From a virus, in IMG/VR virus record IMGVR_UViG_3300020468_000005, positions 24,573 through 88,572 of that record: a DNA stretch of 64,000 nucleotides. One strand, 5' to 3'. Within the stretch, counting starts at the first letter, position 1, and the number at the start of each line of letters is the position of its first letter. Under the pieces are notes generated by a model. That model was given only the letters and a program-made list of their open reading frames with translations, searched no databases and was not told the DNA's origin. Of this stretch, positions 18,901 through 59,508 are shown piece by piece. The translations under genes were made by a program, and so were the position numbers.

Positions 18901-21900
18901 AATTGGCAAATACAGGATCTGTAACTAGTCCCTTTACTTTAAATGGTACAGAATTCTTTGATTTTGGTAGTAGAGCATTCACTGGTAACGAGACTGGTGT
19001 ACCAGGTCCTGGTGAGACTACTATTATAAGTTTGGAACATTATCTTGCTAGAGTTGATAAAGTCTTTATGAATAAAGACAATGAAATTCAAGTAGTAAAA
19101 GGAGCTCCTAGCACTAACCCTGTTGAACCAGAAGACATTGAAGATGCAATGTTACTGGCAACAATCAACTACAATCCATACGTATTTGATGTTGACAAAG
19201 ATGTTAGTATCAGAGAAACTAACTTCAAGAGATATACTTTTAGAGATATACAACAGTTAGAAGATAGAATTAAGACACTCGAATATTATACACAATTATC
19301 ACTACTTGAAAGTGAGACTGCAAGTATGGAAATTAGAGACACTAGTGGTCTTAGCAGATTTAAAAATGGATTTGTAGTAGATAACTTTGCAAGTCTTTCA
19401 ACTAGTGATACTTTACATCGAGACTATAGAGTATCTCTTGATTTTGATGAAGGTCAATGTCGCCCATCTCATTATACTACTCAAGTACCTCTTACATTTT
19501 CTACAGCATCTACTAATGTACAGCAAACTGGAGATCTTGTAACACTTCCATATACAAGCACAGTTCTTTTAGATCAACCATATTCTTCAGGTGTTGAGAA
19601 TGTTAACCCATTTAACGTATTCACATATGTTGGAGATATTCAGTTGCATCCAGAGTCTGATAACTGGGTAGATACTAAAACTCTTAATCCTGTTAAAGGT
19701 CCTGTTGTAGAAGGTAACTTCCTTACTACTGTTAGAGAGTATAATGCTGACCAGAATGGTTTTTCTCCAACTCAATGGAACTCATGGAAAACTACATGGA
19801 CTGGGAAAACTAAATCAGTAGATGTTGGTAGTTGGAGAAGAAGAACAAAAAGATCTAGAGTTAGAACTATTACTACTACTAGAACAACTACTAGAAAACA
19901 AACAAGAACAGGTATCAGGTATAGAGTTACTCCTGTTATTGAGCAGAAGTCACTAGGTAACAAGGTTGTTTCTGTAGACCATATTCAGTTTATGCGTTCT
20001 AGAAACATTGAGTTTAATTGTAAGAAATTAAAACCAAGAACTAAGTTCTTTGGATTTTTTGATGGTATTGCTCTACCTACTAAATTAGTTACACCTAAAA
20101 TTATTGGTTTGACTAAGGATTCATCTAGTGATTCTAAAACAAACAATATTCCTTTCCAAGTTGGTGAGACAGTATATGTCAACTCAGCTGGATCTCCTGG
20201 TTTTACACCTAAGAAAGGATTTAGATTTAAGGCAAGAGTTGCAGCACCTAATGAAGGATTTGAAATAAATCCATTAGACGGAACTGATATCCAATCTACT
20301 AATGACTATACATCTAACTTAGGTTTCCTTAACATTGATACTAAGTCTCTTGCTGATCAGGCAAAGGGAACTTATTATGGTTCACCTAAAATTAATGATT
20401 ATATTATTGGAGAAACTTCTGGTGCAATTGCTAAAGTAACAAGTAAAGACTTGATCAGTGACAAGAGAGGTAAACTTAGAGGATCATTCTTTATAGATTC
20501 ACCTAAGGGTACAGGTAATCTTAAATTCAAGACTGGTAATAAATTATTCAGACTTACTGATGATGCATCCGATAGTAAGGTTATTGGTGTATCTGATTCT
20601 AGTGCTGAGGTAGAATTTACTTCTTCTGGTATCTTACAGACAGTGCAAGATCAAATTATATCTGTAAGAAATGCTAAGGTTACATCTGAAGAAATGTTCG
20701 ACTCTAGAACTGTTAAAGATACTAAGCAATCTAAAAAGAATGAAGTTAGATTCTGTGACCCACTTGCACAAACCTTCCTTATTGAAGATTCATCATTAGA
20801 AGGTGGGGTATTCTTAACTAAGATTGATATATTCTTCTTTACTAAGGATGAGGAAATTCCAGTATCATTAGATATTAGAACTGTAGTTAATGGTAATCCA
20901 ACTCAAATAATTGTACCTCTTTCTAAAGTTATTAAAGATCCTGAGGATGTATTCATATCTGCAGATGCTTCTAAACCAACTTCATTTGAGTTTGAATCTC
21001 CAGTATACCTACCATTCAGACAGGAACATGCTATTGTATTGACTTCTGACTCTAACCAGTATAAGGTATTCATCTCTATTCTTGGTGAAGATGCTATAGA
21101 TGCTGCACATGCAGGAGAAAAAATTTCTGAGCAACCATACATCGGTGTATTGTTCAAGTCACAGAACGCATCTACATGGACACCATCACAGTATGAAGAC
21201 TTGATGTTTAAGATCTATAGAGCAGAATTTGCATTACCAAGCACATCATCTAATAGTAAACTTGTACTAGAAAATGCACAACTTGGTGAATCTAATGGTG
21301 GTTTCTTAAATCTTGCAGCTAACTCCATGCAAATGACTGCAGGTCAAGATGAGATTAGAGTATTCCATGGTAATCACGGTATGCAGTCACCACTTAACTA
21401 TGTACAGATAAGCGGTGTAACATCTGAAGTTCCAGATACTGCACTTACATCTACTATTAGTACAACGGGTACCTCCACATTTACAGTTACTAACGCAGCA
21501 TTATTCCATACCACTATGGGTGGATCTGCGATAAGTAATTCAAATCCAGGTTTTGTAAGAATTCTTGGAGAAGCAGAAGATGGCAGTGGAGATGAGATTA
21601 TTGCATATAGTGGTATAAATTCAAACACTATAACAATTGCTTCCAATGGACGTAACCATAGTGGTAGTGCAGGTGGATCAACTGGTTTATCACATTCATC
21701 TGGTGCTATTGTACAATGTTACAATCTAAATGGAATTCCACTTACATCAATCAATGCTACTCATACTGCACCTGGTGGAATTATATCTATCAACAGTCCT
21801 CATAGTTACAATCTAAAAGTAACTGGTAAGACAGCAAATACTTCTATGATGGGTGGTGGTGTCTTTATAACTGCTTCTCAAAATATTCCATGGGACGTAT

Positions 21901-48669: not shown

Positions 48670-49458
48670 ATGTCAAAAATTATGAAGGGTGGAATGACAC
48701 CTGAGCAAGTCGAGGACTGGGTAGAGAACTCGATGCATTATGGAATGACGCATGAGCAAATTAAGAACTTCGTCATTAACTCTAATGTAACTGATTTTCG
48801 TCAACTAAGACAAGTTCTAGTTGAAGTTGAAACTAGGAGTCATGAGAGAAAGAAACTCTGGATGGATCATCAGAGAAAAGAAATTAAGATAAATCAATTA
48901 AAAGCAAGGTTAGAAAAAGAAGAAGATGAATTTGAAAGGCAACTAATTCAAATTGATATAGATGAATACGAATTAGACTTAGGTAAATTCAAGGTTAATA
49001 TTAGACAGTATGACCATGAACTAGAACCTTTCATGGAATACATCAATAAGAACTTTGCAAATATAGATGAGTTAGCTGACGTTGCTAATTACTCTGAAGA
49101 GGATGAAAGAAAATATTGGATTGCTAGAATGGGTAAACAAGCAGCTATTGACATATATGCCAATGGCAGAATAGGTATTGGTAATATGGATTCTATCGCT
49201 ATGATGCGAGAAGAAGATCAGATATATGCAGTCAATATTGCCATGCAATATGCAGGTTTATTGAACACAGGTATATCTAAAATTCAAAATGAATTAAAAC
49301 CTCATATAGATAAATTACTAGGAGATGGAACCGAAGTAAGGTTCCCAACATTCGATGGGATTGAGAAAAATCTCAACCTTGACTTATTCAACAAATTGAC
49401 AGGATCCAGTGGTGAACAAAAAAGTCTTCAGTCTACCAATAAACCCGAAACTGAGTGA
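48670..49458 (+). CDS. Coiled-coil protein of unknown function in the fibre cluster (262 aa)
   Basis: Residues 45-125 are strongly charged and helical, with ETRSHERKKLWMDHQRKEIK and RLEKEEDEFERQLIQIDIDE, likely a long coiled coil. A second helical block has YWIARMGKQAAIDIYANGRI and GIGNMDSIAMM, a motif I associate with uncharacterised marine T4-like phage proteins. It overlaps the next gene (49409) by 50 bases in another frame. No catalytic motif is visible. A structural or assembly role is possible. Confidence 0.55.
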   Translation: MSKIMKGGMTPEQVEDWVENSMHYGMTHEQIKNFVINSNVTDFRQLRQVLVEVETRSHERKKLWMDHQRKEIKINQLKARLEKEEDEFERQLIQIDIDEYELDLGKFKVNIRQYDHELEPFMEYINKNFANIDELADVANYSEEDERKYWIARMGKQAAIDIYANGRIGIGNMDSIAMMREEDQIYAVNIAMQYAGLLNTGISKIQNELKPHIDKLLGDGTEVRFPTFDGIEKNLNLDLFNKLTGSSGEQKSLQSTNKPETE

Positions 49459-51145
49459 AGAGTTTGTAACTAATACATTCCTTCCCTTTTTAAAGAAACA
49501 TCGAGATTATATACTAGATCTATATTTTACATGTAGAATCCCTCCGTTCAATCAGGACGCTATGGGGGATTGTTTTACTGCAGATCAAGCATTGATTGAT
49601 GCTGCATGTTATATCTCAAATAAATCTGACATACCCTTATCAGCAACATTTAATAATATATGGGTTAGACCCGACCAAAAGAATTTAGATTTGTGGATAG
49701 AAAACTTTGCACCCATATATGATATGGGAGTTAGAGTGGTTACTTTACCACATACAACATGGGTATCTACAGGACAAATACAATCTGCCTTTCCAGAATT
49801 GTTCATAAAGAATACTATACTTAGAGAAGTAACAAGACCTAATGAAATAGTAGCACTAGCAGAAGCAGGTTTTCATTATATAAATCTTGATCGTGATCTT
49901 ATGCGAGATAGAGATCAGTTAGTTCGTATACAAAAAGCAAAAGATTATTGTGCATTTATAAAAAAACCTGTTATGCTCTCAATGCTTGTCAATGAAACAT
50001 GTTGGGGTGGTTGCCCTATCATGCCAGAGCATTATCAATATAACAGCACTAGAACAAAAGACGATCCCATATTTTTTGCTAGTCCTATTAGTAGAGTCTC
50101 ATGTTCTACATGGGATGTTGAGCATCCAGAGTATGATTTGAAACAAGCAAACCTACCTCCATGGAGAGAGGATTGGTTAGAAATGTTAGACCTTGGAATT
50201 GATACATTCAAATTACATGGAAGAGAACATGGTATGCGTCTCTTAGAAAGTATGGAACTTATTAAAAGATGGGCAGATGAAGAAGAGTATATGTTTCCAG
50301 AGTATAAAAAATATCAAGCAGAGATGCAGATGAAAGATGCTCCCATTAATGCATGGAGACAAAAAATCAAGACATGTAAGTTTGACTGTTGGGACTGTAA
50401 CTACTGTGAGAATGTGATTGAATACCACATGAAAAAAGCAGATATAGTAGTTCACTCACAAGTAGAAACATGCATAGAAGCATTTACCAATTCAGGTAAG
50501 TACCTATCTAATCATAAAACATATGACCCTAACGATCCTGATGCATACTTTAATATACCTGGTTTGTCATCAGCTAGAGTCAGACATTTCTTAAACAATC
50601 TCTGCTCTCAAGAAGGTGCAGTGTATCTTGAGGTTGGAGTATATGCAGGTTCAACATTCTGTGCTGCTATACAAAATAATGACATGGTTGCTGCGTATGC
50701 TAATGATAACTGGTCACAACCTAATCTACAACCAGCAAGAGAGGATATAGAATTACCAATAAATGATGTGACTGTCAATACTTTTGTAGATAATTTACAA
50801 CATAACGTAGCTACTGATAGTTTGGATTTCGATATTCAAGTACTCAAAGGTGATTCGTCACAACTAGGAAAAAAGGATTTCAAACATGATGTCAATATTA
50901 TTTTCTATGATGGAGATAATGCAGAACATAAAATGATAGAATTTTTTAACCAGATGTTGACATTTACTGATAAGGTGTTTACTTTGGTTATTGATGATGC
51001 CAATGTAGAACAAAACGTTGCTATAACAAAAGGTTGGGTAGAGAAACAGCAACTAAGAGTTTTATATGAAAGAGAGTTATTGAATGATCAAGAGGATGAT
51101 AAGATGTGGTGGAACGGATTGTATGTTCTTGTAATAGCTAAATAG
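49409..51145 (+). CDS. U32-like Fe-S-type protein fused to a SAM-dependent methyltransferase
   Basis: The N-terminal part (1 to about 340) looks like a U32 TIM-barrel. It shows LWIENFAPIYDMGVRVVTLP, KNTILREVTRPNEIVALAEA, GFHYINLDRDLMRD, PVMLSMLVNETCWGGCPIMP and a DTFKLHGRE element matching the KIEGR strand of U32 proteins. Cysteines fall in two groups: C198, C202 and C232, then C323, C327, C330 and C333. Known U32 proteins such as UbiU/UbiV and the tRNA hydroxylase TrhP carry [4Fe-4S] clusters and are hydroxylation factors. The C-terminal part (about 390-578) is a Methyltransf_24-like class I methyltransferase: YLEVGVYAGST (406-416), a VNIIFYDGDN motif and LVIDDANV. GTG at 49409 overlaps the previous gene by 50 bases. 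The substrate is unknown. Confidence 0.6.
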   Translation: MVNKKVFSLPINPKLSEEFVTNTFLPFLKKHRDYILDLYFTCRIPPFNQDAMGDCFTADQALIDAACYISNKSDIPLSATFNNIWVRPDQKNLDLWIENFAPIYDMGVRVVTLPHTTWVSTGQIQSAFPELFIKNTILREVTRPNEIVALAEAGFHYINLDRDLMRDRDQLVRIQKAKDYCAFIKKPVMLSMLVNETCWGGCPIMPEHYQYNSTRTKDDPIFFASPISRVSCSTWDVEHPEYDLKQANLPPWREDWLEMLDLGIDTFKLHGREHGMRLLESMELIKRWADEEEYMFPEYKKYQAEMQMKDAPINAWRQKIKTCKFDCWDCNYCENVIEYHMKKADIVVHSQVETCIEAFTNSGKYLSNHKTYDPNDPDAYFNIPGLSSARVRHFLNNLCSQEGAVYLEVGVYAGSTFCAAIQNNDMVAAYANDNWSQPNLQPAREDIELPINDVTVNTFVDNLQHNVATDSLDFDIQVLKGDSSQLGKKDFKHDVNIIFYDGDNAEHKMIEFFNQMLTFTDKVFTLVIDDANVEQNVAITKGWVEKQQLRVLYERELLNDQEDDKMWWNGLYVLVIAK

Positions 51146-52245: not shown

Positions 52246-52275
52246 ACTATATAATATACATTATTATTCTAAAGC

Positions 52276-52461
52276 ATGGACATTGAAGGCATGGTCAAGG
52301 AATTCACTGACCAATTAAAAGAACAAAAGGCAACAGTTGTTGAACTAGAAAAACAACTCAAGACTCGTAATGAACAAGTATTGAGATTGGAAGGTGCAAT
52401 CGAAGCACTTAATATGACACTCAAGAAACCAGAGGAAGAAGGTGGTACGGAAGTCAAGTGA
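52276..52461 (+). CDS. Small coiled-coil protein
   Basis: This 61-residue protein is almost entirely one coiled coil (FTDQLKEQKATVVELEKQLK, then NEQVLRLEGAIEALNM) with an acidic tail. It resembles in design the ORFs at 22628 and 25143. It overlaps the next gene by 20 bases. Function is unknown. Confidence 0.6.
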   Translation: MDIEGMVKEFTDQLKEQKATVVELEKQLKTRNEQVLRLEGAIEALNMTLKKPEEEGGTEVK

Positions 52462-52786
52462 GTTTAGACAAAAGGAGCATGTAGACTCTAGGCAGATATA
52501 TCTACCTTTCAAGGGAACTATCGAAACATGCCCCTATAAAGTTGGAGACTTATACGATGGTCGAGAGGTAATAGCACTGGGATTTACCGAGAATGTCTAC
52601 GGACATTACTATCATATTATTGTGGAAAGAGATAGAACTCATCTGAGAACTAAATTTCAATTTGATTCAAAGCATGATTTAAAATTCTCAAAACCATGTG
52701 AAAGGATGGGTGGTAAACCTCAGGACATGGAAAAACAATTGAGGAAATATTTACCAGATGGTCTCGCACAAGACACAGCCAACTGA
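52442..52786 (+). CDS. Hypothetical protein (114 aa), GTG start
   Basis: I do not recognise it. The frame opens at GTG 52442, within the end of the coiled-coil gene, and no internal ATG gives a reasonable length. It contains QIYLPFKGTIETCPYKVGDL, a Tyr/His-rich element (ENVYGHYYHIIVERDRTHLR) and a basic C terminus (QLRKYLPDGLAQD). The last 29 bases overlap the aminotransferase start. The chain of three overlapping genes (52276, 52442, 52758) implies co-translation. Confidence 0.5.
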   Translation: MVRKSSEFRQKEHVDSRQIYLPFKGTIETCPYKVGDLYDGREVIALGFTENVYGHYYHIIVERDRTHLRTKFQFDSKHDLKFSKPCERMGGKPQDMEKQLRKYLPDGLAQDTAN

Positions 52787-54005
52787 GTTAACATGCATTA
52801 GTACTAAATCTGAACTTAGAGCATGGACATCAGGTGAACTTGATAAAATTGTAACTAAGACCGATAGGTATTGGATTGAATATTCTGATGGTAATCGGTT
52901 ATTAGATTTACAGTCTGGAAACTCTGCGTATACTCTAGGGTATGGCAATAGAGAAGTCATGGATGCATTGGCATCTGAAGTTAATTTTATAAGAGGAAAT
53001 AAAGGAGAGACATGTGAACTCTCTAAGAAAATGGTCAACCTAGTTTGCTCTACAGGCAACTGGGATGTTTTGTCGTGGGCAATATCTGGATCATCAGCAG
53101 TTGAATCTGCTATCAAGATGAACGATCAGTACTGGGGTAATCAAGAAAACTTTATAGTTACGTTTGCACCTGGTTTTCATGGCACTACATATTTGACAAG
53201 AAATATGGGGGATACGTCTGATGGGATAAAAAGAATTAAGAAAGTACCAACACCTTTATGGAGAAAAGAAAAGGATCAAGAGAAGGAAGAAGATAAAGCA
53301 ATCAAGTATTTAAAACTTCTTATCAAAACATACAATTGTTGTGGTAGAAAGATAGGGTGTATTGTCATGGAAACACTACCATGGTTGAAAGGTGGTATCC
53401 CATGGTCACCACGTTGGTGGAGAACAGTACGTGATCTATGTAACGAGAATGATATATTAATGATCACTGATGACGTTTGTACGTGTTGGGGTAAAGGTGG
53501 TGGTTATCATGGTTGGCAAAAGTATGGAGTACAACCAGATATATCTGCACTCGGTAAATCTTTAACAGCTGGTTACACACCACTTGGATGTTCAGTTGCC
53601 AATAAGAAGGTAGGAGATGTATTGAAGGAACAAGATTGGGAGTTTGGACATACTTGGCAACCTACTATGACAGGTATATCTGCTATGAATGCAGTTAATA
53701 ATATAATAATTAGAGATAATTTGTTTGAATTATGCAAACCAATAGAGGACAGTCTAAGGTTTTTTGCTGAGGATTGTCTCGATAGGGGATATATTACTGG
53801 GTATAGAGTGAGTGATTTATTCCTATCACTTGATGTAAAAGAGGAGTTAGACCCAGAAGCATTAATTCAATCTGGACTAGCATTGAGTAAGACAAGAGAC
53901 AAATCAGTAAGAATAGTTGCTAACTTCTTAGCTGATCAAGAATTCTTTGACGAAATGCAAAAAAGACTATTCGGTTTCTTTAGTATAAATACATCTGAAG
54001 GATAA
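52758..54005 (+). CDS. Class III PLP-dependent aminotransferase
   Basis: This 415-residue protein shows the complete pattern of the class III (BioA/ArgD/GabT-like) fold-type I family. The N-terminal strand YWIEYSDGNRLLDLQSGNSA is followed by the PLP phosphate loop SGSSAVESAIKMN and the aromatic-His element FAPGFHGTTYLTRNM. Next come the cofactor Asp in MITDDVCTCWGKGG (D238; the family usually has DEV), then PDISALGKSLTAGYTPLG with the Schiff-base Lys at 267, and GHTWQPTMTGISAMNAV. All key residues appear intact, so it is probably active. Length is near the family norm. ATG at 52758 overlaps the previous gene by 29 bases. The substrate cannot be told from sequence. Metabolic enzymes are unusual among tail-fibre genes. 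Confidence 0.8.
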   Translation: MVSHKTQPTELTCISTKSELRAWTSGELDKIVTKTDRYWIEYSDGNRLLDLQSGNSAYTLGYGNREVMDALASEVNFIRGNKGETCELSKKMVNLVCSTGNWDVLSWAISGSSAVESAIKMNDQYWGNQENFIVTFAPGFHGTTYLTRNMGDTSDGIKRIKKVPTPLWRKEKDQEKEEDKAIKYLKLLIKTYNCCGRKIGCIVMETLPWLKGGIPWSPRWWRTVRDLCNENDILMITDDVCTCWGKGGGYHGWQKYGVQPDISALGKSLTAGYTPLGCSVANKKVGDVLKEQDWEFGHTWQPTMTGISAMNAVNNIIIRDNLFELCKPIEDSLRFFAEDCLDRGYITGYRVSDLFLSLDVKEELDPEALIQSGLALSKTRDKSVRIVANFLADQEFFDEMQKRLFGFFSINTSEG

Positions 54006-54018
54006 TAGTGCCAACCTA

Positions 54019-57000
54019 ATGAAGAGGGTAGTCGTCAGGGTATCCGATAACTATAGTATAGATTCAGCAGCAGCTGCAATTCTAAAATTATATGGTTATC
54101 TGACCTTTGTAGAATCATTTAGAAGTTTTTCCATAATCACATTTGATTGTCCAGAAAAGTATTCAAGCGGATTGCTTGATAAATTAAATGCTTTAGGACC
54201 TATTAAGAAGTGTACGTGGGATGGTGAGAAATTTGAAGTTGCTCCCGTGGATACTGGTGCAACATTAAGTGTAGATAATTCAAGTAGTTTAGAAATTAAT
54301 ACTAGTGGAGAATCAAATACAACTGCAAACACTAGAAATTTAGTTACCAGTGGTTCTGGTACAATATATGTAAAAGTACAAAATATTGGTGGACAAAATC
54401 TATATGTATTTTCCAGTAGTATTAGCGGAACATATTCTGTCTTTGCAAACCAAACTGGATTTGTGCAAGGTGGTACATATACATTTGACCAATCAGATTC
54501 TTCAAACGCTACACATCCACTTAGATTCTCTACTACGCCAGATGGAATACACATAACAGGTGGGTCAGAAATGACCACAGGTGTATCAACAACTGGAACA
54601 CCAGGTACTAATGGTACAACAGTATTGACTGTAAGTTCTGCAACACCATCAATATTATATTTCTATTGTGTTGCTCATCCTGGCATGGGTAGATATCAAG
54701 TTTCACCTATCAATAGGTATGGAACTGTTAACATCCATGACTACTGGCACTTAGATAGAATTACAAAACAAGACAGGCAATATTTAAACGGACAGTATAG
54801 TTACACTCAAGCAGGTGATGGAGTAGACATATATGTAATTGATACTGGTGTTCGTGGTGCAAGTAGACCAACAGGTAACAACGCAGCATTACATCCAGAG
54901 TTATACGATCCAGATTTTGTCAGTGACCTGAATGGTACTTCTGAACAACAGAACTACAGAGTATTTCAGTTGAGTCATTATGCGGGTGCATATGGAACTA
55001 ACAATGAGGATGATAACGGGCACGGTACATATTGTGCAATTCTTTCAGCTGGTAGAACAGCTGGCGTAGCAAAAGATGCAAAGATATATGCATTGAAAGC
55101 ATTTAGCTCAAGTAACCAAGGATCTTATACTGCAATACTTGGAGCATATCAAGCAGTTATAGATCATAATGATAATACTAGTGGAGATTATAAAAACAAT
55201 ACTAGACCAGCAATTATCAATGCTTCATTCGGACCTACCATTCCTAGTGAAGGATATCCTTATGTAGAACTAAACGATGCAGGTTCTGATAGCGGTGTTG
55301 ATGAAGAAATGTTAGATGACATTGAAGGAACAATATCATCAAGTTATAACATATTAGTGGTAAGATCTGCAGGTAATGGATTTAAAAATGCCAGTGATCA
55401 GTTTGTAGGACCAATGCAAACAAAAGCAATTGCAGGTAGTAGAACTGCTGGTTATGCAGATAACACAGATGGTGGTATTAATAACGTAGATGCTGATCAG
55501 AAAAAGATATGTGTTGGTGCATCAGAATATAATGACAGGTGGGCAGACTTTTCAAACTATGGTGCAGGTGTAACAACTGTTGCTCCTGGTGCTAGAATAT
55601 TGAGTCCTGCATATGATTGGACTGCTAATACACCATATACAAGTCCATCAAATTACAATACTATAAACGGTACATCATTCTCTTGCCCCATAGTAGTTGG
55701 TATTATGGCTTGTTACTTTAGTAAGAATGGATATACATCTAACACAAATAATTTAGCAGGTACCTCAAAGGTTTACCACAGAATTTATGCTGCAGCTGGA
55801 AATTTAACTGTTCTGGGAACTAATAACTATCCCACTAACAGTATAGAAGATAAAAAACTTATTGATAATCCATATGAAACTTCCAATGGATCAAATCAGT
55901 TGCTTGTTAAATTTAATCCTTCTGATTCAGCTCACTTCATTGGTAATGTTGGTAAGAAATGTCAATTAAGAACTACAGGTTCAACAGCAGGTGCTGGTGG
56001 TGCTACACCTACTGCATTTAATGTAACTACAACTTCACCTTCGTTCTCATACTATACTTTAAATGGAACTGACAGAAATGGTGCGGTAAGTGGAAACAAT
56101 GCAGGTGTTGCTGTATATGTTGGAGACACCATTAATTTTAATCTATCAGGTGTTAGTGGTTCTCACCCATTTTATATTAAAACTGTACAGGGAACTGGAA
56201 CTGGTAATCAGGTAAGTACACCAGCTGCTACTGGACAAGGATCTACAGGAACTACAACTGTGTCATGGACACCAAACACAGCAGGTACATATTATTATCA
56301 GTGTTCTGCACATAATGCAATGAATGGAACTATTACTGTCAGCAATGCACCTGGTAGTGGTACTGGAGTTACTGTTGGTGGTATCAATGTTTCTGAATTA
56401 TCACAAAGTGGTTGGTTAACTATACAGGCAGAGAACGCTGTTGACAATACAATAACTTTATTCGCTTCTAGTAATGCTACTGGAAGTACTACTGGTGGTG
56501 GATCAAATAATTACTTAGCACTTATAAAGTCAGAAGACTTACTACACGAGAGTTATGATGGTGTTGTATCTACATCAACAACTTTAAGATCTCAAACTGA
56601 TACACAAGAAGCTGCTGGTACTGGTACATATACTGATGTAATTTATTACCCAGTAGATAGCGGTGTTGATTTTAATTATTCTTTATCTACACAATCACTT
56701 ACCAGTAAACGTGGTGCGTTTTTCCCATACATAGACACCAATGTCACTTGGACTACTTCATCTGGATCTATAGCAACATATTCAAATGGTGATAGTGTTA
56801 ATATTGATCTAGGTTTAGATGGAACAACTTTTGCAAGTGAACCAACCTTTGAATTTTACACTCTCAGTGGTGATTCAATTGGATCATCAGGTCTTTCATT
56901 AGATCAGTCAACAGGTATATTGAGTGGAACTGTAACTGCAGATTATATTGATACGACATTTAACTTTACTATTACTGAGAATATAACAGCAAATGCAAGA

Positions 57001-59508
57001 TCATATTCCTTCACCACAACTGGAACTGGTGTTTTAGTTAACATCACACAACAACCAAGTGCTGCAAGTGTTGAAGCAGGTTCTGGTAATACTGCTACCT
57101 TCGGACCTGTAGCAGGTATTAGTTCTGATGGATCTACAATTATATTCCGATGGGAGTTCTCAAGTAATGGTGGTGTAGGTTGGTCTAGTGTTGTTGATGG
57201 TGGTGGATATAGTGGATCAAGTACAAATACACTTACCGTAGATGACGATTTTGCCAAGAACACTTATCAGTATCGTTGTAAGATGGAAACTAATACTTCG
57301 GTACAACCATCTTATACAAATGCAGCTACGTTAACAGTATTCAGAGTCATTACTATAAGCAATCAACCAACTGATCAGAATCCAATGGCACCCGCAGCTG
57401 CTACATTTACAGTTGCTGCATCAACATTAGATACTGCTACAATCGCATATCAATGGGAAAAATCTGAAAATAATGATGGTATCAACTACGCAACTATAGG
57501 TGGTGCAACAGGAGCAAGTTATGTTACTGCTGCTACAACATATGATGCTGATTACGGAGATTATTATAGATGTGTTCTCTCAGCTCAAGGTGCATCTAAT
57601 GTAACAACTACCTCTGCCAGAAATTTAGTTCAAAGAACTATAAACATTACATCACAACCAACTAATGATACTGGTGCTGTTGGTGGGACAAGATCATTTG
57701 GTGTTGCTGCTACTACATCAGATTCTGATCCTGGCGACATCACATTCCAGTGGCAAGTATCTATCACTAACGGAGCGTCTTGGTCTAATGTATCTGAAGG
57801 AACTGGTGGAACTACAGCTACATATACAACTCCTACATTAACTACAACATATGATGAGTATCAATATCGTTGTTTACTTTCAGCACCTGGTGCAACAACT
57901 ATACCTTCTAATGCTGCTACATTACAAGTAGAAACAGTAACTGTTGTTGTTACAAACCAACCAACTCCTCAGAGTGTAAACGAAAATTCTACTGCAACAT
58001 TTACTACACTTGGTGATACTACAATGTCACCTGTAGGTGGTAACGCTGCATCTTCTTCATTTGATACAGAACAATTTGATACACCAACTGGCGGTGGTGG
58101 AGGAGGATTTGAAGGGCAATCATCCCATGAACCTAATGTTACATACCAATGGGAAAAATCTGATAACGCAGGTGCTAACTGGAATCCAATTGGAGGTGCT
58201 ACTAGTGCATCATATACAACTGCAGCTACAGTATATGCTACTGATCATGATGACCAGTATCGTTGTGTTATTAGTGCAGTCGGTGCAGCATCTGATACAA
58301 CAACAAATGCTGTTACACTAACAGTCTTAAGAACATTTTCTATTACAGCACAACCTTCTAACCCAACTGCAAATGAAGGTGCTACTGCATCATTCTCTGT
58401 TAGTACATCTTCTAGTAGTGGAACTCCAACATACCAGTGGGAAAGATCTGATGATAATGGATCTAACTACTCTCCTGTTGGTGGAGCAACAAATGCAGCA
58501 TACACTACACCAACATTAGTACATGCTAATGATGACGATGATCGTTATCGTTGCGTAGTATCTCTTGTTGGATCTGCTGCTGACATAACTTCTGATCATG
58601 GACTATTGACTGTTCTAAGAGTTATTTCTATTAGTCAACAACCAGTAGATACATCTGTAATTGAAGGGCAGACCGCAACCTTTAGTATTACTGCTGCGAT
58701 CACTAGTGATTCTATAGCATATCAATGGCAGAAATCTACAGACAGTGGTGGTAATTGGACTAATATCAATGGTGCAAACGCAGCATCATACACTACACCT
58801 GCAACAACATTCCCAACAAGTCCATCAGAACAGTTCCGTTGTGTTTTATCTAACGCAGAAGCAACCACTGTAACTTCTAATTCTATAACTTTAACTGTTA
58901 ATGAATCTGAATTTGTATCTGGTCCTACTACAGTAACACCATTTGTTGATCCAGACACTACCAAAACATTATCGAGAAGACCAGTTATTACTACTTCTGC
59001 ATTCGTTTCTGAATATGCAGGATCAACTCATGCTTCTACATTCTGGAGAATTAGAAGAGTAAGTGATAACGTAACTGTATATGATACTGCAGGTACATAT
59101 GCTAATGGTGATACAGGTAACTTAACCTCATTTACTGTGCCATCTGCTGTTCTAGATTTTGACACTACCTATCAGGTACAGGTTAAATTTAGAGATAATG
59201 CTAACTTGGAAAGTGCTTATACATCTGCGGTTAATTTCACAACACCATTTGTAGATCAACCAGATATCCAAACAATAGTACCAGCATTTAACCCAACAAT
59301 TAATGTTGATCCTATTGCACTGAAGACTGGTTATCAGCATACCTCTAGTGATTGGCAGTTTGCTGCAACAACAGCTTTCTCACCTCCTGTTCACCAATCA
59401 CTTGGTAACCCAACTAACTTAACACAGTATTCTTTACCTGTTAACGTTACTTTGAACGCAAACACTACATATTATGTAAGAATTAGATTCAACGTTAATC
59501 CTACCTAA
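54019..59508 (+). CDS. Subtilisin-like serine protease with cupredoxin-like and Ig-like domains (1829 aa)
   Basis: Residues 1-75 (VVVRVSDNYSIDSAAAAILK; KKCTWDGEKFEVAP) look like an I9-type propeptide. A cupredoxin-like domain follows (TFDQSDSSNATHPLRF; FYCVAHPGMG). The S8 catalytic core is complete: D275 in VIDTGV, H335 in NGHGTYCA, N453 in RSAGNG and S553 in NGTSFSCP. A second cupredoxin-like domain lies near 660-775 (TYYYQCSAHNAMNG), then a beta-rich linker, six Ig-like domains (about 1010-1630, nt 57046-58905) and two C-terminal FN3-like units. There is no signal peptide, so it probably travels on the virion. It lies directly before gp13. A role in cutting the host surface or maturing virion proteins is inferred. 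Ig copy four carries a Gly-rich insertion. Confidence 0.8.
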   Translation: MKRVVVRVSDNYSIDSAAAAILKLYGYLTFVESFRSFSIITFDCPEKYSSGLLDKLNALGPIKKCTWDGEKFEVAPVDTGATLSVDNSSSLEINTSGESNTTANTRNLVTSGSGTIYVKVQNIGGQNLYVFSSSISGTYSVFANQTGFVQGGTYTFDQSDSSNATHPLRFSTTPDGIHITGGSEMTTGVSTTGTPGTNGTTVLTVSSATPSILYFYCVAHPGMGRYQVSPINRYGTVNIHDYWHLDRITKQDRQYLNGQYSYTQAGDGVDIYVIDTGVRGASRPTGNNAALHPELYDPDFVSDLNGTSEQQNYRVFQLSHYAGAYGTNNEDDNGHGTYCAILSAGRTAGVAKDAKIYALKAFSSSNQGSYTAILGAYQAVIDHNDNTSGDYKNNTRPAIINASFGPTIPSEGYPYVELNDAGSDSGVDEEMLDDIEGTISSSYNILVVRSAGNGFKNASDQFVGPMQTKAIAGSRTAGYADNTDGGINNVDADQKKICVGASEYNDRWADFSNYGAGVTTVAPGARILSPAYDWTANTPYTSPSNYNTINGTSFSCPIVVGIMACYFSKNGYTSNTNNLAGTSKVYHRIYAAAGNLTVLGTNNYPTNSIEDKKLIDNPYETSNGSNQLLVKFNPSDSAHFIGNVGKKCQLRTTGSTAGAGGATPTAFNVTTTSPSFSYYTLNGTDRNGAVSGNNAGVAVYVGDTINFNLSGVSGSHPFYIKTVQGTGTGNQVSTPAATGQGSTGTTTVSWTPNTAGTYYYQCSAHNAMNGTITVSNAPGSGTGVTVGGINVSELSQSGWLTIQAENAVDNTITLFASSNATGSTTGGGSNNYLALIKSEDLLHESYDGVVSTSTTLRSQTDTQEAAGTGTYTDVIYYPVDSGVDFNYSLSTQSLTSKRGAFFPYIDTNVTWTTSSGSIATYSNGDSVNIDLGLDGTTFASEPTFEFYTLSGDSIGSSGLSLDQSTGILSGTVTADYIDTTFNFTITENITANARSYSFTTTGTGVLVNITQQPSAASVEAGSGNTATFGPVAGISSDGSTIIFRWEFSSNGGVGWSSVVDGGGYSGSSTNTLTVDDDFAKNTYQYRCKMETNTSVQPSYTNAATLTVFRVITISNQPTDQNPMAPAAATFTVAASTLDTATIAYQWEKSENNDGINYATIGGATGASYVTAATTYDADYGDYYRCVLSAQGASNVTTTSARNLVQRTINITSQPTNDTGAVGGTRSFGVAATTSDSDPGDITFQWQVSITNGASWSNVSEGTGGTTATYTTPTLTTTYDEYQYRCLLSAPGATTIPSNAATLQVETVTVVVTNQPTPQSVNENSTATFTTLGDTTMSPVGGNAASSSFDTEQFDTPTGGGGGGFEGQSSHEPNVTYQWEKSDNAGANWNPIGGATSASYTTAATVYATDHDDQYRCVISAVGAASDTTTNAVTLTVLRTFSITAQPSNPTANEGATASFSVSTSSSSGTPTYQWERSDDNGSNYSPVGGATNAAYTTPTLVHANDDDDRYRCVVSLVGSAADITSDHGLLTVLRVISISQQPVDTSVIEGQTATFSITAAITSDSIAYQWQKSTDSGGNWTNINGANAASYTTPATTFPTSPSEQFRCVLSNAEATTVTSNSITLTVNESEFVSGPTTVTPFVDPDTTKTLSRRPVITTSAFVSEYAGSTHASTFWRIRRVSDNVTVYDTAGTYANGDTGNLTSFTVPSAVLDFDTTYQVQVKFRDNANLESAYTSAVNFTTPFVDQPDIQTIVPAFNPTINVDPIALKTGYQHTSSDWQFAATTAFSPPVHQSLGNPTNLTQYSLPVNVTLNANTTYYVRIRFNVNPT
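57046..58905 (+). repeat. Six Ig-like repeats in the protease gene
   Basis: Units of about 95 residues each follow I-x-x-Q-P, E-G-x-x-A-T-F, YQWEKS-x-x-x-G-x-N-W, an A-x-Y-T-T-x-T strand and Q-Y-R-C-V-x-S, ending in T-x-x-x-x-L-T-V. Examples are YQWEKSDNAGANW, YQWERSDDNGSNY and YQWQKSTDSGGNW. Unlike classical Ig domains, only the second cysteine of the usual pair (YRC) is kept; the first position is not Cys. Confidence 0.8.

Follow-up and report, generated by a model that had tools for sequence, protein, structure and literature searches.

Typical nucleotide-sugar aminotransferases are of the DegT/DnrJ type and do not belong to class III. A functional precedent for the combination of an oxidase and a class III aminotransferase on a sugar 5'-carbon is the SapB/SapH pair, in which the oxidase makes a 5'-aldehyde on the sugar that is then transaminated by the class III enzyme SapH (PMC10127198). 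The genomic setting of the gene described here likewise has a known counterpart, the host recognition cluster of pelagimyophages and cyanomyophages, a hypervariable region that precedes the neck genes and in which glycosyltransferases occur along with auxiliary genes and radical-SAM cassettes (PMC7029224). The DNA analysed (hereafter the window) is a stretch of 64,000 nucleotides corresponding to bases 24573-88572 of an 88,572-base virus contig. DNA and protein matches identified the Prochlorococcus phages P-HM2, P-HM1 and MED4-213 (Eurybiavirus) as the nearest cultured relatives, and the window belongs to a T4-like cyanophage. It encodes a class III (fold type I) PLP-dependent aminotransferase, an enzyme of a known kind, whereas the viral clade to which it belongs and the associations with partner genes appear to be undescribed in the open-licence papers searched.

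The open reading frame (ORF; 52758-54005, + strand) consists of 415 codons with an ATG start and zero internal stops. Residues 30-402 matched PF00202 (Aminotran_3) with 154.5 bits (E 4.5e-45, gathering cut-off 30.5), which was the sole Pfam match of the 415-aa protein at E <= 0.001; the DegT/DnrJ/EryC1 family gave no match at this threshold. A chance origin of the ORF is excluded, since 16 IMG/VR loci have the gene at 64-99% identity. The dN/dS of the window gene was 0.04 compared to L002/L003 and 0.19 compared to L004, while 0.06 was obtained for L004-L005 and 0.05 for L008-L010; the value of 0.21 for the window and L001 is based on almost no substitutions. With values of 0.04-0.19, the enzyme is therefore under purifying selection (dN/dS about 0.04-0.2 overall), which bears out the view of a preliminary description of this DNA that the gene is intact, of normal length and under selection. 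The overlap with the upstream neighbour that it had pointed out amounts to 29 nt, as the gene starts inside a 114-aa ORF (52442-52786). The ATG at this junction is kept in L004 and others, although the window protein has a longer N-terminus.

The residues expected for PLP catalysis were found where they had been described, including D238 (pyridine-N Asp) and K267 (Schiff-base lysine), together with the phosphate cup SGSSAVESA at residues 110-118, a Y/F/W-H-G motif at residues 140-142, and T299. All of these are invariant or conservatively replaced across the viral family, and S110-G111, H141-G142, D238, K267 and T299 were kept in 22/22 viral rows of the alignment. A basic residue (R385 in the window, K/R in general) is aligned in 20/22 rows with the carboxylate Arg of ArgD, AstC and GabT. 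In these enzymes, the Arg binds the alpha-carboxylate. R385 is a candidate for the same role, which suggests an amino-acid donor. Several usual class III residues are altered in the viral proteins: D-D is found in all 22 rows as opposed to D-E in 10/10 aligned cellular rows, the E-P pair is absent from all 22 (E-P to E-T), and P-P is changed to A-N. The position of the omega-transaminase pocket Trp is held by S/A/T/M or L, a replacement that suggests space for a bulky acceptor. At the EPxQGEGG site of the ArgD/AstC/GabT/PuuE group the viral protein has ETLPWLKGG, with loss of the switch Glu, and the BioA substrate motif SSWWAA is lost as well.

An AF2 model of the window protein, built from 23 diverse viral sequences (pLDDT 85, pTM 0.86), is predicted to have fold type I, class III topology. 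Foldseek and VIA-align 2 matched it to omega-transaminases, taurine aminotransferase, BioA and SapH over about 390 residues (Z 44-47, where matches within 1 Z are ties; rmsd 2.2-3.3). The ORF very probably encodes an active PLP aminotransferase. Its substrate is less readily assigned from profiles, as no curated substrate family was reached by the window protein. The best curated profile was the BioA equivalog TIGR00508, with 134 bits against a cut-off of 405, and this model was matched by 8/8 members of set A1 (best E 3.2e-43). The argD profile gave 111 bits (cut-off 410) and the GABA transaminase profile 87 bits (cut-off 507). Daptide and PbfA enzymes were among the weak profile matches, and phrog_2736 ('aminotransferase') was weakly matched by 22/23 family members (best E 6e-15; partial in the window).

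The gene is preceded by two conserved genes on the same strand, encoding a 61-aa protein (52276-52461; T4-like GC 517, phrog_580), which is the first gene of the presumed operon, and the 114-aa protein mentioned above (T4-like GC 518, phrog_26228), presumed to belong to the same operon. Downstream lies the gene of an 1829-aa subtilase-like protein with Ig-like repeats (54019-59508, +; phrog_27200, T4-like GC 519), which is the right edge of the insertion site and outside the enzyme system. The earlier placement between adhesins and a protease is thus right on the downstream side, whereas the immediate upstream neighbours are the two small conserved hypothetical genes, which a Gly-rich adhesin-like ORF precedes. 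In P-HM1, P-HM2 and MED4-213, the order is GC517, GC518, directly GC519, gp13, gp14 and gp15. Since these phages have both flanks without the aminotransferase, the gene is a cassette with a specific point of insertion. Synteny extends to its 16 close relatives in IMG/VR, where the junction is common to all loci with both flanks readable. In L015, a different stretch is found immediately upstream of the aminotransferase start. The locus, situated between tail-fibre genes and gp13/gp14, lies among virion genes as previously stated, in a tail-fibre/host-recognition island, and its position matches that of the hypervariable host recognition cluster, ahead of the neck genes. P-HM1 and MED4-213 carry 2OG-Fe(II) oxygenases at this junction, and L010 and L015 have oxygenase-like ORFs; as obligatory partners the oxygenases were ruled out, being present in phages without the aminotransferase and absent beside the gene in the window and L004.

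Other genes of the region were noted in passing. A 578-aa protein (window 49409-51145) has matches in 123 cyanophage records, a weak C-terminal methyltransferase domain and no PDB match; its N-terminal part is Cys-rich (CWGGCP, CKFDCWDCNYC) and by eye resembles U32-type Fe-S proteins. Upstream of the window, L050 8168-8614 (G000:C1 about 20467-20913) encodes a short phosphopantetheinyl transferase (PF01648, E 1e-8) whose homologues, at about 51%, are confined to P-HM1, P-HM2 and MED4-213 and which has no obvious carrier-protein target; it was ruled out as a partner, because these three phages have it without the aminotransferase. The record of L050 holds several 2OG-oxygenase-like genes, among them an aspartyl/asparaginyl beta-hydroxylase (L050 2192-2785; PF05118, E 4e-17).

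Late expression was assessed from promoter-like motifs. ACTATATA (52246-52253, +; motif only), a one-mismatch copy of the late-type element ACTAAATA/NATAAATA, is the presumed promoter of GC517, GC518 and the aminotransferase. Such a one-mismatch copy precedes GC517 in the window and L001, while NATAAATA or ACTAAATA itself was found 29 nt upstream of GC517 in 10/12 aminotransferase-bearing loci examined; the element is also present before GC517 in cultured phages (29 nt in P-HM2, 31 nt in P-HM1), and late-type TAAATA elements lie upstream of the operon in relatives. The T4-type late-promoter element TATAAATA (53984-53991, +) falls within the aminotransferase gene at its 3' end and 35 nt ahead of the protease start; it precedes the subtilase start by 35-37 nt in 13/13 aminotransferase-bearing loci with that junction; the P-HM2 equivalent is CATAAATA. 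The window has four exact TATAAATA sites (14378, 32528, 45660 and 53984, all + strand), a number not above chance, though their positions are striking, each 28-37 nt before a gene start and at or inside the end of the preceding gene. These four sites are likely T4-type late promoters. A sigma-70 promoter scan gave matches no more frequent than in shuffles. Because late-type elements sit before GC517 and before the subtilase gene, we infer that a small operon ends with the aminotransferase gene, ahead of a separate promoter that serves the protease. These motifs make late expression, as proposed in the preliminary description, plausible, with the two small upstream genes as the co-expressed neighbours, whereas the protease has a promoter of its own.

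Relatives were sought by scanning viral contigs with a degenerate DNA pattern for K-[GS]-L-T-x-G-Y-x-P-L-G, which yielded 51 stretches. Outside the cyanophage group, relatives are encoded at 36 loci, with 28-42% identity among those of full length, and exactly one copy was found in 26/26 records tested. T4-type gp23 is present in G002, G007 (114 kb) and G010 (213 kb), and a terminase in these three and in G003; most other records are fragments without a gp23 or terminase match, their viral status being taken from IMG/VR. Among 50,697 cultured phage records, a collection that may omit close relatives of the window, there was no true homologue. The 38 matches obtained were below 29% identity and came from host-like or contaminated records, on which grounds they were ruled out as true relatives, and group-B and group-C relatives used as queries likewise found no true homologue there. 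The gene was also present in 0/123 cultured cyanophage records that have the 578-aa gene and is thus not a standard cyanophage auxiliary gene, the possibility that would have spoken against the original description.

An LG+C20 tree was built from the 22 viral rows and 13 cellular class III enzymes (E. coli BioA, HemL, ArgD, AstC, GabT, PuuE, PatA and six others). All 22 viral rows fell on one side of a branch (support 100/100) whose stem is very long, at 2.31 changes per column. BioA was on a separate branch from the viral clade, and HemL, whose composition was deviant, fell within the cellular group, apart from the viral rows (100/100). The window group is sister to the group with B12-radical-SAM neighbours (96/96). 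Two short cyanophage-specific peptides gave one match in bacterial genome contigs, a scan that covers cyanophage-type peptides only and that cellular members of the wider family could escape. This match was a misbinned 7-kb cyanophage contig (L026 / PBPE01000110.1) in a GTDB Dehalococcoidia MAG, and among 201 genomes of that MAG's phylum only the same contig was found at E <= 1e-80. These comparisons strongly suggest that the clade is specific to viruses.

In group B of the relatives, a 177-aa dehydrogenase-like gene adjoins the aminotransferase or overlaps its start by 1-4 nt in 10/10 records and is beside the aminotransferase in no other group; this and the following counts include near-identical contigs in some groups, so not all are independent events. 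The dehydrogenase assignment comes from weak SDR models and from TGxxxGIG and YxxxK motifs seen by eye, with no Pfam match at 1e-3 and no PDB match. L055 also holds an LpxH/PlcP-like phosphoesterase, a family-2 glycosyltransferase and a DesA-like desaturase. In group C, the aminotransferase is followed by a B12-radical-SAM gene in 8/8 records, directly or past one oxygenase-like gene, and the encoded protein is nearest to the KedN5 C-methyltransferase family (subthreshold). A polysaccharide-type cluster with UDP-galactopyranose-mutase-like, NAD-sugar-epimerase-like and glycosyltransferase-like genes was found in G008/L112. The group-D genes have upstream of them an LpxH/PlcP-like phosphoesterase together with a GT4, for which glycolipid synthases are the best models (subthreshold), and these records possibly reflect phage-encoded lipid remodelling under phosphate stress. 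A B12-radical-SAM homologue, 32-34% identical, is located 23-25 kb away in 5/5 group-D records searched, and G011 (L106) and G025 (L105) have arrays of radical-SAM and B12-radical-SAM genes around the aminotransferase. On the large group-D contigs L102, L103 and L104, ClpX-, ClpS-, Hsp20-, DnaK- and PstS-like genes were seen by eye. In the window itself, the locus showed neither a recognisable glycosyltransferase nor any other sugar gene, no group-B-type dehydrogenase was found in the window or its cyanophage group, and the window record contained no B12-radical-SAM homologue.

The best overall explanation, to which we give a probability of roughly 0.42, is that this virus-clade aminotransferase aminates a carbonyl of a carbohydrate or lipid-linked sugar for surface or virion glycans. 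The amino group would be taken from an alpha-amino acid, consistent with the basic residue at the ornithine-aminotransferase R413-type position in 20/22 members, and would be passed to the aldehyde or keto group of a fairly bulky acceptor. The likeliest acceptor is a carbohydrate, or a lipid-linked sugar, that belongs to the host surface or the virion. The co-transcribed short dehydrogenase would supply the carbonyl in some relatives; in the cyanophage, as no partner is visible at the locus, it may be supplied by the host or by another phage gene, perhaps outside the 88.6 kb. The enzyme would be made late, together with the two small host-recognition-cluster proteins, and a likely benefit would be a change in the glycans of the surface or virion, with effects on superinfection exclusion or adsorption. 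Amino-sugar synthesis, one of the tasks originally suggested, is compatible with the neighbourhoods of the relatives. However, glycan neighbours are found in some relatives only, while others lie among radical-SAM or chaperone genes, possibly without a functional link, and the glycan or lipid-glycan target taken by itself is a tentative assignment with somewhat less than an even chance.

A role in metabolism is an unlikely alternative. Here the auxiliary gene would encode a transaminase for omega-amino acids, polyamines, biotin-type compounds or other small molecules, and would move host nitrogen, the second task suggested in the preliminary description, or make a cofactor during infection. 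Among solved relatives and profile matches, the nearest are omega-transaminases for amines, taurine and beta-alanine, together with BioA and ArgD, and auxiliary metabolic genes are also known from cyanophage host-recognition islands (PMC7029224), but the scores are well under every equivalog cut-off, the SSWWAA motif and the ArgD/GabT switch Glu are gone, and the viral clade stands apart at 100/100. Moreover, the relatives' gene lies beside varied modification enzymes rather than one metabolic pathway. The altered class III residues could also be read as signs of a degenerate or moonlighting protein without transaminase activity, acting as a PLP lyase, a racemase or a structural component, and some class III members are indeed lyases, e.g. 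PbfA, which was matched by 8/8 members tested. We consider this improbable, as K267, D238, T299 and the phosphate cup occur in 22/22 rows and the basic carboxylate-site residue in 20/22.

The radical-SAM neighbours lend themselves to yet another interpretation, in which the virus encodes a pathway for a natural product or nucleoside and the aminotransferase, with radical-SAM and dehydrogenase partners, makes an amino-modified nucleoside, peptide or similar small compound. This distinctly unlikely pathway would account for the adjacent or nearly adjacent B12-radical-SAM gene of group C, its distant homologue in group D, the arrays in G011 and G025, the weak daptide and PbfA matches and the SapH fold match; however, neither a precursor peptide nor an NRPS or nucleoside pathway was found, and the B12-radical-SAM homologue is missing from the window record, which has 88.6 kb compared to about 180 kb in cultured relatives. 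The position among very large tail proteins and the 2OG-Fe(II) oxygenases at the junction would instead suit a modifier of virion proteins that, together with the 2OG-Fe(II) oxygenases common at this locus, aminates an oxidised side chain of a tail fibre or adhesin. This is very improbable: oxygenase and aminotransferase are not linked, because either occurs without the other at the junction, and the group-B and group-D relatives lie among genes unrelated to tails.

Beyond the preferred reading of glycan amination, it is conceivable, though unlikely, that a single virus-specific amination module is common to many uncultured phages, cyanophages included, and that its partners (dehydrogenase, B12-radical-SAM, 2OG oxygenase and glycolipid enzymes) direct it to amino-modified sugars, lipids or nucleosides. 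If true, such a module would make compounds new to viruses, by a logic like that of aminoglycoside or C-nucleoside tailoring. An unlabelled clade, seemingly confined to viruses and without a curated family, points to unrecognised viral chemistry; it occurs in at least three lineages with T4-like gp23 and in no cultured phage record, and its several partner genes yield testable pathway hypotheses.

Compared to the omega/amine transaminases 5lh9, 6s54 and 3hmu and the taurine:2-oxoglutarate aminotransferase 6jix, the viral protein has the fold in common over about 390 residues (Z 44-47), as well as the PLP lysine, the Asp, the phosphate cup and the partner-subunit Thr. It is, however, only 18-24% identical, its C-terminal domain is shorter, a small residue or Leu stands in place of the pocket Trp, and it carries D-D-V and E-T/D-S signatures. 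BioA (diaminopelargonic acid synthase), the best curated match, has a helix similar to the viral SGS-AVE-A-KM--QYW, but the viral score of 134 falls short of the cut-off of 405, SSWWAA is lost and the tree branch is separate. The viral family also matches phrog_2736 weakly, yet that is a separate family. SapH (7qzj, pseudouridimycin synthesis) is a class III enzyme that acts after an oxidase on a sugar aldehyde and matches the fold with Z 44.4, although it is bacterial, 17% identical, and has a flavin oxidase as its partner, not a dehydrogenase. Finally, although the text of the paper on the host recognition cluster (PMC7029224) names no aminotransferase, the cluster is the same hypervariable pre-neck island with auxiliary and radical-SAM cassettes, and in the cyanophage amination would be added to the enzymes of this island, where modification of the surface or virion is suspected.
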